Assembly: GCF_003572205.1 (NCBI RefSeq) | Contig: NZ_QXNY01000004.1 | Location: 620,548-684,547, forward strand | Source of the DNA: Algihabitans albus | GTDB taxonomy: Bacteria; Pseudomonadota; Alphaproteobacteria; Kiloniellales; DSM-21159 | Direction: 5' to 3' | DNA length: 64,000 bases | Shown: positions 30,534-40,100 of the stretch, in pieces | Layout of the letters: each line of letters opens with the position of its first letter | How positions within the stretch are numbered: the stretch's first letter is position 1 | Translations under genes and position numbers: made by a program | The notes under the pieces: model-generated | What the model was told of the DNA's origin: nothing | What the model saw: the letters and a program-made list of their open reading frames with translations, nothing else | Databases searched by the model: none

Positions 30534-31613
30534 GTGACCTTTTCCCTTCTGTCTTCCCCCAGGTCAGCCGCCCCTTCCGAGGCGCTGGCGACGCCGCGTG
30601 CCGTTGCCCTCTGGCTTCTGGGCGTGGCGGCGCTGATCTTTGCGATGGCGGTGATCGGCGCCATCACCCGGCTGACCGAATCCGGCCTCTCGATCATGGA
30701 GTGGGCGCCGGTTTCGGGATTCCTACCGCCGCTGAGCGCGGCGGAATGGGAGCGGTTGCTTGAGTTGTACCGACGGACTGCCGAGTACCAGCAGATCAAT
30801 CGCGGCATGACGCTGTCGGAGTTTCAGGAGATCTTCTGGTGGGAGTGGATTCACCGCCAGTGGGGCCGTCTGATCGGTCTGGCCTATGCCCTGCCGCTGG
30901 CCTGGTTCTGGCTGCGCGGAAGGCTGCCGGGCTGGATCAAACCGCACCTGCTGTTCGCGCTCGGCCTCGGCGCGCTGCAGGGCTTCATGGGATGGTTCAT
31001 GGTGGCCAGCGGCTTCTTCGGCGAGCGCACAGACGTCAGCCAGTACCGCCTGGTTCTCCACCTCTCCCTCGCGCTGATCATCTATGCCTATCTGCTGTGG
31101 CTCGCGCTCAGCCTCTTGAGAGGTTCAGCGACGGCGCCGGAGGCCGTGCCTCTGCGCCTAGCGGCGAAAGCCTTCGCGGGGCTTCTGGCCGTCACGGTCG
31201 TCTCGGGCGGATTCGTCGCCGGGACCAACGCCGGGATGACCTACAACACCTTTCCTTTGATGGACGGACAACTGATCCCGGCCGGATACGCGGCCCTGCA
31301 GCCTTGGTGGATGAACTGGTTCGAGACCATCGCGGCGATTCAGTTCAATCACCGTCTTCTGGCCGTCACGACGGCGGGCGCGGCGTTGCTGCTGTGGCTG
31401 GGGTCTCGCCGCCGGGACCTGGCACCGGCGATGCGGCAAGGTTTCGTTGCCGTTGCCGGCGTAGCTCTCGTACAGACCGGGCTTGGGATCGTCACGCTGT
31501 TGCTGGCCGTGCCGGTCTGGCTCGGGGCGTTGCACCAGGCCGGGGCGCTCTGTCTGATCGCAGCAACGGTCTTCCTGCTGCACAGCCTGCGGCGCGCCTC
31601 GACGGCGCTCTGA
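30534..31613 (+). CDS. ctaA: Heme A synthase (CtaA/COX15)
   Basis: A 359-residue membrane protein that converts heme O to heme A for cytochrome aa3. It has eight hydrophobic helices and the expected motifs: GAITRLTESGLSIMEW in the first loop, WWEWIHRQWGRLIG, VSGGFVAGTNAGMTYNTFPLMDGQ, NHRLLAV and GIVTLLLAVPVWLGALHQAGALCL, which carry the heme-ligating histidines. The start is probably GTG 30534; ATG 30444 would add 30 unrelated residues that overlap the repeat neighbourhood. It converges with the MFS gene (9 bp apart). Confidence 0.92.
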   Translation: MTFSLLSSPRSAAPSEALATPRAVALWLLGVAALIFAMAVIGAITRLTESGLSIMEWAPVSGFLPPLSAAEWERLLELYRRTAEYQQINRGMTLSEFQEIFWWEWIHRQWGRLIGLAYALPLAWFWLRGRLPGWIKPHLLFALGLGALQGFMGWFMVASGFFGERTDVSQYRLVLHLSLALIIYAYLLWLALSLLRGSATAPEAVPLRLAAKAFAGLLAVTVVSGGFVAGTNAGMTYNTFPLMDGQLIPAGYAALQPWWMNWFETIAAIQFNHRLLAVTTAGAALLLWLGSRRRDLAPAMRQGFVAVAGVALVQTGLGIVTLLLAVPVWLGALHQAGALCLIAATVFLLHSLRRASTAL

Positions 31614-31622
31614 AGAGCGACT

Positions 31623-32876
31623 CTAGCTGTCTTGTTGGGACTGGCTCTCCGCGTACTCGTCGGCGGCCATCGCCGCAGCGATCGAGGCCGAACTTTGCGA
31701 CACGGCGACCCAGCCGCCCTGCTCCTCCAGTGGCAACGCCGGGCGCCTGGCCATGCGGTAGAGTGCGAAGCCGCCGAGCAGCAGATGCAGCAGGGCGACC
31801 GTGGCGAAGAAACCGCTCGGCCCCATGACGCCCATGGCCGCCCCGGCAGCCGGCGGTCCGAGGATGCCGCCCACCGCATAGACCAGATAAAGCGTCGAAG
31901 AGGCCGCCACCATCTGTTCGCGTTCCAGATGATCGTTGGCGTGGCTCAAAACCAGCGCGTACATGGAGAGGCAGAACCCTCCGAAGACCGCCGCGAGCCC
32001 GTAGAGGGGCCAGCGATCGAGGTCGCCGACCCACCAGGCCAGCCCTGCGACACCGCTTGCGATCAGGGTGACGACGGTCATGACAAGCCGCCGGTCGAAG
32101 CGGTCGGAGAGCTGCCCGATCGGAAACTGCAGCAGCACGCCCCCGATCATGAAGGCGGAGACGAAGATCGAGATCTCGGCCCCGGTCAGACCGGCCGAGG
32201 TGGCGTAGACGGCGCTCATGCCCATCAGCGCCCCTTGCGCGACGCCGAGCAGGGCCGCTCCGACCACGGCCAAGGGCGAGGTGGTATAGAGCACCGTCAG
32301 GGAGACCGGTTGAGGGGCGTCGAAGTAGGGCGCCGGGCTGGCCGAAAGCAGCATCGGGACAAGAGAAACGGACAGCAGGACCGACACCAGGATGAACAGC
32401 ACGAAGCCGCTCGGGTCGGACAGGACCAGAAGATACTGGCCGGCGGCCATGCCGAGCATGACGACGATCATGTAGATCGCCAGAACCTGGCCGCGGGTTT
32501 CGTTGGTCGCCCTGTCGTTCAACCAGGACTCGGCGACGATGTAGAGGGCTGCCACGCAGAAGCCGGTGACGATGCGCATGGCCGTCCAACTGATCGGCTC
32601 GATCATCACCGAGTGCGCGAGAACGGCGACCGAAGCCACTGATGCCACCGCTGCGAAGACCCGGATGTGGCCAACCCGCCTGACCATCAGAGGCGTCACC
32701 AGGGACCCGATCAGAAAGCCCACATAATAGCCGGCCATGATCACGCCGGTGATCGTTTCGTTGAAGCCTTCCAACCCCGCGCGCACGCCCAACAATGTCG
32801 ATTGAAGGCCGTGTGCGGCCATGATGAGCCACAGGCCGATGAACAGGCTCCAGGTGGCGGCAAGCGCAGTAATCAT
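31623..32876 (-). CDS. Major facilitator superfamily transporter
   Basis: A 417-residue protein with about twelve membrane helices, opening MITALAATWSLFIGLWLIM. The first-loop RRVGHIRVFA motif (GX3D/RXGRR type) and a second RFDRRLVM repeat the MFS loop signature. The long cytoplasmic C-terminal tail is Gln/Ser/Ala-rich. It resembles YcaD-like drug/metabolite exporters, but the substrate is not predictable. The 608 bp upstream contains no gene on this strand. Confidence 0.85.
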   Translation of the reverse strand: MITALAATWSLFIGLWLIMAAHGLQSTLLGVRAGLEGFNETITGVIMAGYYVGFLIGSLVTPLMVRRVGHIRVFAAVASVASVAVLAHSVMIEPISWTAMRIVTGFCVAALYIVAESWLNDRATNETRGQVLAIYMIVVMLGMAAGQYLLVLSDPSGFVLFILVSVLLSVSLVPMLLSASPAPYFDAPQPVSLTVLYTTSPLAVVGAALLGVAQGALMGMSAVYATSAGLTGAEISIFVSAFMIGGVLLQFPIGQLSDRFDRRLVMTVVTLIASGVAGLAWWVGDLDRWPLYGLAAVFGGFCLSMYALVLSHANDHLEREQMVAASSTLYLVYAVGGILGPPAAGAAMGVMGPSGFFATVALLHLLLGGFALYRMARRPALPLEEQGGWVAVSQSSASIAAAMAADEYAESQSQQDS

Positions 32877-33150
32877 CGCCGGGAACCTTTAGCGCAGGCC
32901 TTGCGGGAAAACAGGCGGTCCAGTTCGGAATCGGGCGCCTGTCGAGCAGGCCACGACGCATTGCGAGCGTCGGCGTGAAACCCCGTGGAATCAAGCGTCC
33001 CGACAGGCGTGGACTTTTTTTCGCCATCCCTCTTGCAACCGCGCAACAGATACACACATTTCCGCATAGACAATGCGCAAATTGGTAAATCCACCGAGAC
33101 GCGCAAGGAATTTCGGCAGGCGGACGTGCGCCCTCTCTGCAGGGTCGGTC
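32877..33150. other. Intergenic region upstream of the MFS gene, no gene seen
   Basis: This part of the 608-bp gap between the MFS and bcp genes has no credible coding frame. It contains a T-run at 33009-33015 and a region of lower GC near 33040-33100 that could be a promoter for the + strand transcript whose terminator is at 33298-33326. No -35/-10 pair is convincing. Confidence 0.35.
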
Positions 33151-33326
33151 TCGTCCGAAGGTCGAGGTTGAATTGGTTGGGCCGTCGATCACCGGTCTCG
33201 GCACGACCAATATGTCGGTTCGTCGTCCGCAGTCCTGCGGATCTCCCCGTCAGACGGATCGGCACCCTAGCTGAGAGGTTGCTTCGCGGTAACTCTTGCG
33301 GCGTCCTTCGGGGCGCCGCCTTTTTT
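33151..33326 (+). ncRNA. Candidate structured small RNA ending at an orphan terminator
   Basis: No coding frame is present, but several hairpins can form in order: ATTGGT with ACCAAT around GCCG/CGGC (about 33173-33212); CCGCAG/CTGCGG (about 33228-33241); CCGTC/GACGG around a one-base gap (33247-33257); and GTTGC/GTAAC (33279-33294). They end in an ideal intrinsic terminator with a UUCG tetraloop. The nearest + strand coding gene upstream ends at 31613, with an opposite-strand gene between, so the terminator is unexplained by any CDS. Boundaries and family are unknown; it does not match tRNA, tmRNA, SRP RNA or RNase P features I know. Confidence 0.4.
33298..33326 (+). terminator. Strong rho-independent terminator (UUCG tetraloop)
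   Basis: GCGGCGTCC (33298-33306), loop TTCG (33307-33310), then GGGCGCCGC (33311-33319) and C followed by six Ts. Nine pairs including one G-U. It is oriented for + strand transcription, although no + strand gene lies directly upstream. Confidence 0.8.
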
Positions 33327-33484
33327 CATGACGCAAGTCTTCCCGACGGCGCGAGGACATTCCGCGAGGGGCTAAGCAAAACCGGGTCCGCGCAGAGACC
33401 GGAGCCGATTGGAGCGTGTCCGTTCATTGGCCTCCGCAGCCAACTCCTCCGCGGCAGATGCCCGCTTTCCGAAAAGGCCCGGTG

Positions 33485-33949
33485 TCAGAGCTCCTTCGCT
33501 TTCGCCAGGACCTCCTCGACGTGGCCCGGCACCTTCACCTTGCGCCATTCGGCCCGCAGCACGCCCTTTTCGTCGATCAGGAAGGTGGAGCGGTCGATTC
33601 CCATGTATTTCTTGCCGTACATCGCCTTCTCGACCCAGGACCCGTAGGCCTCGACCGTCTTGCCGTCCTCGTCCGATGCAAGGGTGAAGGGCAGGTCGTA
33701 CTTCGCCTTGAACTTATCGTGCTTGGCGACAGTGTCCTTGGACACGCCGATGATCTCCGCGTCGAGCCCGTTGAAGTCCGGCAGGTTGTCCCGGAAGCCG
33801 CAAGCCTCCTTGGTGCAGCCGGGGGTGTCGTCCTTCGGGTAGAAGTAGAGGACGATCTTCTTGCCGCGCAATCCCTTGAGGGAAACCGAGCCGCCGCCAT
33901 CCGTGGGCAGGGTGAAGTCCGGGGCAGGCTTGCCAACTTCAACGCTCAT
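33485..33949 (-). CDS. bcp: Thioredoxin-dependent peroxiredoxin, Bcp/PrxQ type
   Basis: A 154-residue peroxiredoxin that reduces peroxides using thioredoxin. The active site is YFYPKDDTPGCTKEACGF with peroxidatic Cys45 and resolving Cys50, the alpha-Bcp spacing. IGVSKDTVAKHDKF and GIDRSTFLID are family-conserved. The start MSVEVGKPAPDFTL has AAGG seven bases upstream; an upstream in-frame ATG (33964) adds MEKAP and is less likely. It is a single gene upstream of nothing on its strand but the glnE start region. Confidence 0.93.
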   Translation of the reverse strand: MSVEVGKPAPDFTLPTDGGGSVSLKGLRGKKIVLYFYPKDDTPGCTKEACGFRDNLPDFNGLDAEIIGVSKDTVAKHDKFKAKYDLPFTLASDEDGKTVEAYGSWVEKAMYGKKYMGIDRSTFLIDEKGVLRAEWRKVKVPGHVEEVLAKAKEL

Positions 33950-34038
33950 AGGGGCCTTCTCCATCTCGCTGTGGTCGCGGCAAAGGTGACCTCGGGGCGC
34001 CGAAAGTCAAGCTGGTGGGACACCGCTGCGCGGTCCGC

Positions 34039-37181: not shown

Positions 37182-40100
37182 ATGATTCGCCGTTCCACCC
37201 GTATTGCGCTCGAGGTGCTGGTCGGGCTGCTGCTCGCTGCCGTCCTGATCGCGGCGGCCCTGCTGTGGCGCCTATCGGATGGCCCGGTCTCGGTCGATTT
37301 CCTGACTCCGGAACTGGAGCGGGCCTTCGCCGCGGCCGATAGCCCCTTGACCGTGGATGTCGGTTCGACCGAGCTGATTTGGGGCGGCTGGGACCGCACG
37401 GTGGGTTTGCGCGCCCGCGATTGGCGCGTCAACGGTCCGGATGGCCAAAGGGTGGCGCAGCTTCCCGAGGTCGACATCGCGTTAAGCCTGCGTGCCTTGG
37501 CTCAAGGCGTGATCGCGCCCACCTCCGTCGAGGTCAGTGGGGCCAGTCTCACGCTGGAGCGCGATCGCGAAGGACGCTTCGGCGTGGCGGAGACAGCGGT
37601 TCCGGACAGGCTGCCCATGACGCAAGAGGTCCGGTCCGACCGGGACACGTCCCAGAACCGCGCAGGGTTCGACGCGGAGGAAACGCCGGCCGAGATCGCG
37701 GCCTTGCTGCCGGAGCTGGCAGCAAGGCTGCTCGCGCCGGCCGATCCGTCCGACCCCTTGTCTTTCTTGAACTCGCTGCGCGGTCGGGATCTCACCGTAA
37801 CGCTGATCGATCGGGCCGTCGGAACGACTCTTACCGCACGCAACGGATCGATCGAGCTGTTCCGCCAAGACGATGGCATCGCGGGGACGGCGGGTCTGTC
37901 GCTCGACATCGCCGACCGGCCGATGATGCTTGAAGCGACCCTGGACTATGGAGCTGCCGACGGCCGATTGCGGATCGCGGCCGCTTTCCAGGACCTCGAT
38001 CTGTCACGGCTGGGACGGCTGGCGCCGGATCTGGAGCCGCTGTCGCAGGCCGACCTGTCGTTGGACGGTTTGGTCGATTTGGTTTTGGACGCGGACGGGC
38101 GCATCGACCGGCTCGCTTTCGATTTCGCCGCCGGTGCCGGCCGCCTGTCTTTGCCTGCGTTCTATTCGAGCCCCCTCGAGCTGGCGGCCGTTGCCGCGGT
38201 CGGCACCTACGAGGCCGCGACTCGGCGGATCGCGGTGGAGGATTTCTCCCTTCAGTTCGGAAATCAGACCGCCGTCGGGCCGAACTTGCGCGCCCGGCTC
38301 AATCTCGATCTCGGCGAGGGCTTTCACGACCTCGGTATCGGTGCCCGGGTCGACCGGGTGGACGTTGCGGACTTGGAGCGTTACTGGCCGGCCGGCGCGT
38401 CGGAGAACGGCCGCACCTGGGTGCTGGGCAACATCGCGGCCGGTGCGGCCGAGAACCTGGAGGTCGTCGCTTCGTTGCGCTTTCCAGACTCTCAGGCACA
38501 AGATCCGCCGGAAGATCTCTCTCAAGAGCCGATTTTGAACAGCTTTCAGGGCGGTTTCGACTTCTCCGGGCTGGAGATCCACTACAACCGACCCATGCCG
38601 CCGGTGACCGAGGCGTCTGGGCGGGCCGTCTTCGATAGCGATGGCTTGAGCTTCGATGTCGAGCAGGGCCGCTTGCAGGAGCTCCAGTTCGACTCCGGTT
38701 CGGTCGAGATCTTCGGGCTGTCCGGTGAGGATCATCGGCTCGCCATCGACGCCGATGTCCGCGGCGGTGTGAAGCCGGCCTTGGAGGTGCTCAATCACCC
38801 GAGGCTGCTGTTGATCGATAAGCTGGGCGTGCCGCTGGAGGGCAGCGGCGGTGCCTTCGCGGCCCGTGTCGGCTTCGCCTTCCCGCTGATCGACGCCCTG
38901 ACGGACGAGGAAATCGATATCACGGCTACCGCCGAGCTCTCCGACGTGATGCTTATGGATGCCGTCTCGGGGCTCGATGTCACCGAGGGTCAGCTGGCGC
39001 TCGATCTCGACGTCCGCTCGATGACCCTGTCCGGGCCGCTCCGCCTCGGCGGCCTTCCTCTGGATCTCGATTGGACCGAGTATTTCGAGGCGCGCGATGG
39101 GGTTCGGCGGGAGGTGACCGCCAGCACTGACGCGCTGGACGCGGCGGCCCGCGCGCAACTCGGCGTTCCTTTGGCGGAGCAGATTCGCGGGCCCGTCGCA
39201 GCCGACCTGCGACTCGTGGGTTTGGTCGACGAGACGTCGGATGTCGAGATCGCCTTGCAGCTCGTCGAGGCCGAGATGGACATTCCCAGGCTTGCATGGC
39301 GCAAACCGGCGGGTGTCGCCGGCACGGCGAGGCTCGTCGCACAGCTCTGGGGACAGCGTTTGGTCGCTCTGCGCAACGTCGAGGTTTTCGCGGGCGATCT
39401 CGCGGTCACGGGTGCGGCCACCTTCTCGCCTGACGACGGCGGCCTGATTCTCGCCAACCTCAACAACGTCACGCTCGGTGGAAGCAGTTTGGACGATATC
39501 AGCGTCCGTCCCTGGCCGACTCCCGCTGGCGAAGGCTGGGAGGTGCAGGTCGGCGGCGGACGTTTGGACGCTGCCCCCTGGTTGGACGACGAAGAGTCGT
39601 CCGACCAGCCGGACGAGGCCGAGCCGGACACTCCGCAAACGCCTCTGAAACTTCAGGTCGCGCAGCTTCAGTTTCTGCACTTGGGCAAAGACCGCGGTCT
39701 GGAGGCCGTCGCTCTGGAGGGAGAGCGTGGACCGCGCGGTTGGGAGCGCTTGAGCGCCTCCGCCGAGGTGCCACGGCTCTGGTGGCGGCGGAACGGCCAA
39801 CTGCGCGACGGAGACGCCGAAATCCCACAAAAGCTGATCCGGTTCGATTGGGGACCGGTGACCGAGGGCAGCGGTTACGCTTTGGAGTTGGGCGCCGACG
39901 ATCTGGGCGCTGTCCTGCGTGTCTTCGGCTGGGTGGACGAAATGGAGGGCGGTCAGACGAGAATTGTCGGTACCAGCCCTGGCCCGCTCTTGTCTGCGCC
40001 GATCGAGGCGGAGCTGGAGTTGCGCCAATACACTCTGGTCGATGCGCCGCTGCTCGGCCGGATCGTTGCCGGGGCTTCGCTCGGCGGTCTCGGCGGCATG

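Follow-up and report, generated by a model that had tools for sequence, protein, structure and literature searches.

An orphan terminator between two minus-strand genes

Which RNA ends at a strong intrinsic terminator that follows no gene on its own strand? This question is raised by positions 33298-33326 of the window, which is the whole 64,000-nucleotide stretch of DNA that was analyzed. The initial annotation had placed here, on the + strand, a nine-pair stem capped by a UUCG loop, with six Ts behind it, and its position is exact. The GC-rich stem (GCGGCGTCC-TTCG-GGGCGCCGC, 33298-33319) has G-C pairs at eight of its nine positions, and is followed by a C and TTTTTT up to 33326. Four terminator-like sites of any quality are found within 1 kb, compared with 0.9 expected, and this one is by far the strongest.

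The terminator lies in a 608-bp gap (32877-33484) that is flanked on both sides by minus-strand genes, as was originally described. These genes encode an MFS transporter (31623-32876) and a bcp-type peroxiredoxin (33485-33964). The closest + strand gene upstream is ctaA, which ends at 31613 and is thus 1.68 kb away, in agreement with the earlier observation that no + strand coding sequence precedes the terminator within 1.6 kb. Downstream, the next likely + strand gene begins at 37182. On the minus-strand side of the stem at 33298-33326, no T-run is present behind the stem, so this terminator is not that of bcp. Elsewhere in the gap, a weak minus-strand hairpin of five pairs followed by TTTT (33385-33400) is a possible bcp terminator.

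Comparison with related genomes makes it highly likely that positions 33172-33326 are the conserved body of a real, structured, stand-alone + strand small RNA (sRNA) that ends at 33298-33326. The RNA would very probably be about 155 bases long or more. An unannotated small RNA had already been proposed for this gap, and the proposal is supported by hairpins that are kept with compensatory changes, by the absence of a conserved open reading frame (ORF) and by the absence of a downstream gene on the + strand.

Conserved structure

In a DNA-level search of 58 related genomes, matches to the region came, apart from the window's own genome, from two genomes, G001 and G002, which belong to the same genus. 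The homologues of 33172-33326 (~155 nt in the window) are at L003:1790-1947 and L004:1428-1600. A common chain is present in the three genomes, consisting of stem-loop H1, a long bulged stem-loop H2, stem-loop H3 and the terminator; the minimum-energy fold of G001 pairs the H3 region differently.

In H1 (33172-33211, + strand), the outer eight pairs are conserved and the apical part is variable. Pair 6 is U-A, U-G or C-G across the genomes, and two one-sided changes also occur. H2 (33214-33263, + strand) comprises an 11-pair outer stem, an inner hairpin (CCGC/GCGG) and a one-sided bulge. Two of its pairs have changed on both sides, and in G001 the inner hairpin is longer on both arms. The C-rich bulge of H2 (AUCUCCCCGUCA, 33241-33252, + strand) is a candidate pairing region in which CNCCCCGUC is kept in all three genomes; it is largely unpaired in the folds of the window and G002, and mostly unpaired in that of G001. 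A second candidate pairing region is the C-rich linker that follows (ACCCUAGCU, or ACCCCUAGCU in the relatives; 33264-33272, + strand). The linker is invariant but for one C, and is mostly unpaired in the centroid fold of the window and in the minimum-energy fold of G002. The sequence of H3 (33273-33297, + strand) is nearly invariant, and its exact pairing is ambiguous between two alternative folds. Because this sequence hardly varies, H3 shows no covariation. The terminator stem of G001, in contrast, keeps its pairing through replacement of G-C by A-U and of C-G by G-C.

The row of hairpins that the initial annotation had described upstream of the terminator is real, but its conserved part begins at 33172 instead of 33151, which leaves out a small, unconserved hairpin at 33151-33165. 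Also, the second stem is a single extended hairpin, with a bulge and a smaller hairpin inside it.

For the window copy (33151-33326), the folding energy is -76 kcal/mol (z = -2.6 relative to shuffled sequences). The homologues, which were folded separately, give z = -4.5 and -4.3 with the same series of stem-loops. In a structural alignment of the three sequences that was made by hand and fitted to the structure, the consensus energy (alifold) is -65.1 kcal/mol, compared with -36.2 kcal/mol (sd 3.9) for column shuffles (z about -7.4), and none of 300 shuffled alignments folds as well. The antisense strand is weaker, at -49.3 kcal/mol. This hand-fitted alignment contains five clean double compensatory pairs in unambiguous helices, namely one in H1, two in H2 and two in the terminator; two more double changes, in the variable tip of H1, were left out of this count. 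When an unfitted MAFFT alignment is used, RNAalifold recovers H1 and H2 and misaligns the G001 terminator. It then flags double changes at five pairs, of which a single one is in the outer H1 stem. Covariation thus provides support for a conserved structure that is strong but, coming from three sequences, not final. Loss of the hairpins in relatives had been named as a refuting result; instead, comparative folding, which had been suggested as a check, indicates that the two further members of the genus with sequenced genomes keep them, with compensatory changes in H1, H2 and the terminator stem.

Distribution and genomic context

Identity to the window copy is 91% in G002 and 81% in G001, and the third codon positions of the adjoining MFS gene are 57% identical. 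The most conserved part of the element is CGGCACCC(C)TAGCTGAGAGGTTGCTTCGCGGTAACT (33260-33294), which is identical in the three genomes except for one linker C and one extra A in G002. In about 85,000 GTDB species, exact matches to a degenerate core were found in only two metagenome-assembled genomes, Rhodovibrionaceae bacterium IP29b_bin.183 and Rhodospirillaceae bacterium ECT2AJA-110-B, and these two seem to correspond to G002 and G001, respectively. When up to three mismatches are allowed, the core is absent from 58 of 61 genomes of the order and from 383 of 385 genomes of the class, and the matches are confined to the genus. No copy was found in the viral contigs searched. A covariance model (R1) applied to the order recovered only scraps outside the genus, the best of which (E 0.005) is a 41-base fragment that was judged to be a chance match. 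In the family's other genera, nothing equivalent is present at the MFS or bcp locus. As far as these searches reach, the element appears to be restricted to the genus.

The element is divergent to the MFS gene in all three genomes. In G001, bcp is 2.3 Mb away and the element is intact, so the element is neither a terminator nor a leader of bcp. A transposase-like ORF, identified by eye, is located downstream of the element in G001.

Perhaps the terminator and hairpins form a transcription barrier that shields the neighboring genes from stray transcription and yields no functional RNA. Terminators can act as insulators, and the genes on both sides of the gap that holds the element are on the minus strand. 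However, the minus strand has no T-run behind the stem, the element persists in G001 even though bcp is not next to it, and a barrier would need neither the invariant unpaired sequence nor the covariation in H1 and H2. A barrier is consequently improbable.

Comparison with known RNAs

The Rfam search that had been proposed for this locus produced no match to any Rfam 15 family at the gathering score in the 64-kb window. A search for tRNA and tmRNA also found none. At a relaxed E-value, the only Rfam candidate is alphaR8-like, and it was rejected on its score and its missing 10-mer. The alphaR8 family is defined by a single-stranded 10-mer, UUUCCUCCCU (PMC12559287). Like alphaR8/MmgR/SisA-D (Rfam RF00519, suhB), the element is a predicted alphaproteobacterial sRNA in which a C-rich unpaired stretch adjoins a strong U-tailed terminator, and alphaR8 is the best Rfam match in the three genomes (25.5, 26.2 and 20.5 bits). 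Nonetheless, the element is very unlikely to belong to this family, whether as a divergent or as an additional member. The scores are under the gathering score of 41 bits and rest mainly on the generic terminator, the defining 10-mer is absent from 33172-33326, and the genome has a proper alphaR8 RNA with the 10-mer at C6:164632-164718 (58.7 bits). Moreover, the element is found at another locus, has two further 5' hairpins, and is predicted to be ~155 nt or more in length, whereas alphaR8 has 77. Two more sub-threshold alphaR8-like hairpin/terminator elements are present in the same genome (L024:1501-1583 and L025:1501-1579, with 31.3 and 30.3 bits). These elements lack the 10-mer, and are possibly other sRNAs or plain terminators.

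6S RNA (RF00013) is similar in length to the element, but the only covariance-model match to 6S RNA in the genome is on another contig (C6:246332-246491). AbcR1 and AbcR2 are intergenic alphaproteobacterial sRNAs with C-rich stretches that resemble anti-Shine-Dalgarno sequences. The element shares with them its intergenic location, its C-rich, anti-Shine-Dalgarno-like stretches and a possible transcription-factor dyad upstream. Unlike AbcR1/2, it has no Rfam match at the gathering score, and no lsrB/vtlR-type gene is among its immediate neighbors.

Flanking transcripts and coding potential

An origin as a cis-acting leader or as a 3' UTR-derived RNA of a + strand transcript, by read-through from ctaA, is most unlikely: ctaA is the nearest + strand gene upstream, but it is separated from the element by 1.68 kb and the entire antisense MFS gene, and a leader would have its next likely + strand gene only at 37182.

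The gap had been said to have no coding potential. A mechanical + strand ORF of 220 amino acids (32985-33647) does cross the gap, but the ORF is not kept in relatives, so the statement was right in substance. No conserved reading frame was found across the three genomes. Equally remote is the idea that the element encodes a small protein or is a dual-function RNA, using a frame that encodes LAERLLRG in the core. The window and G001 do have an open + strand frame across the element, but this reading was rejected on the lack of a conserved frame, an upstream stop in the LAERLLRG frame of G002, residues that differ among genomes on either side of the shared block and indels that are not multiples of three, and the third positions of the core are as invariant as the others.

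Candidate promoter and palindrome

The three genomes also share a conserved block upstream of the element, at about 33033-33082; positions 33083-33171 are poorly conserved. No strong promoter was seen upstream of the element. The block includes a weak candidate promoter, TTGCAA-N16-CACATT (33033-33060, + strand), which has 7 of 12 consensus matches and is aligned in all three genomes. It overlaps a 25-bp palindrome, ATTTCCGCAT-AGACA-ATGCGCAAAT (33058-33082), which is a candidate transcription-factor site and occurs at the same locus in both relatives. With up to three mismatches allowed, the three genomes have 3, 3 and 5 occurrences of the palindrome pattern and none of a reversed control pattern.

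The orthologous ybhL/BI-1 gene (Pfam Bax1-I) is preceded by a palindrome site in each of the three genomes. These sites (like 33058-33082, ATTTTCGCA-N7-TGCGAAAAT-like; L065:1501-1525, L063:1501-1525 and L067:1501-1525) are a few bases upstream of a conserved promoter-like pair, TTGATT...CAATAT, a placement in which an activator would be expected to sit. The arrangement at the sRNA/MFS locus differs, and the palindrome there may serve either the sRNA or the MFS gene. Other genera of the family have isolated sites, nearly all with three mismatches; the motif may therefore be confined to the genus. In G001, the ybhL upstream site is found twice in identical form, near both contig ends (G001:C1:17732 and G001:C1:4611068; L063 and L066), and the two copies may reflect the ends of a circular chromosome that overlap redundantly in the assembly.

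The palindrome was also considered as an LsrB/VtlR site. It does not fit the published LsrB consensus, GCAT-N3-TG-N3-T (PMC8844928), and was rejected as such a site; this misfit is a further difference from AbcR1/2.

Proposed function

As a stand-alone sRNA, the RNA would be transcribed from a start between about 33065 and 33170, with a promoter beside the conserved palindrome, and would end at the + strand terminator at 33298-33326. H1, H2 and the terminator would stabilize the RNA. Two features expected of trans-acting, terminator-ended bacterial sRNAs are present, a U-tailed Rho-independent terminator and a fold that is kept although no ORF is. It would most likely act in trans, helped by binding of Hfq, whose gene is present in all three genomes. 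The unpaired C-rich stretches, which are the H2 bulge (CUCCCCGUC) and the linker (CACCC(C)UAGCU), could pair with G-rich Shine-Dalgarno regions of mRNAs; we give this anti-Shine-Dalgarno mode an even chance. Predicted pairing with the leaders of five genes that are nearby or share the palindrome (MFS, bcp, ctaA, glnE and ybhL) is no better than with shuffles. This lack of a target among the few leaders examined counts against the proposed sRNA, as do the missing strong promoter, the poor conservation of 33083-33171 and the one-C difference between the linker of the window copy and that of its relatives.

The element would represent a new genus-specific sRNA family, predicted from sequence, of an ordinary and already known kind. 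It adds a comparatively supported candidate sRNA family in Rhodovibrionaceae, a family for which the literature searched contains no sRNA work. Genus-specific sRNAs are otherwise common, so its general interest is modest, but it illustrates how a single genus can come to fix a young sRNA. The shared palindrome offers a handle on regulation of the sRNA. Tentatively, and with some doubt, the sRNA family might belong to the regulon of a putative dyad-binding regulator (ATTTTCGCA-N7-TGCGAAAAT) in common with the membrane-protein gene ybhL/BI-1. If so, the sRNA would carry out the post-transcriptional part of a response related to the envelope.
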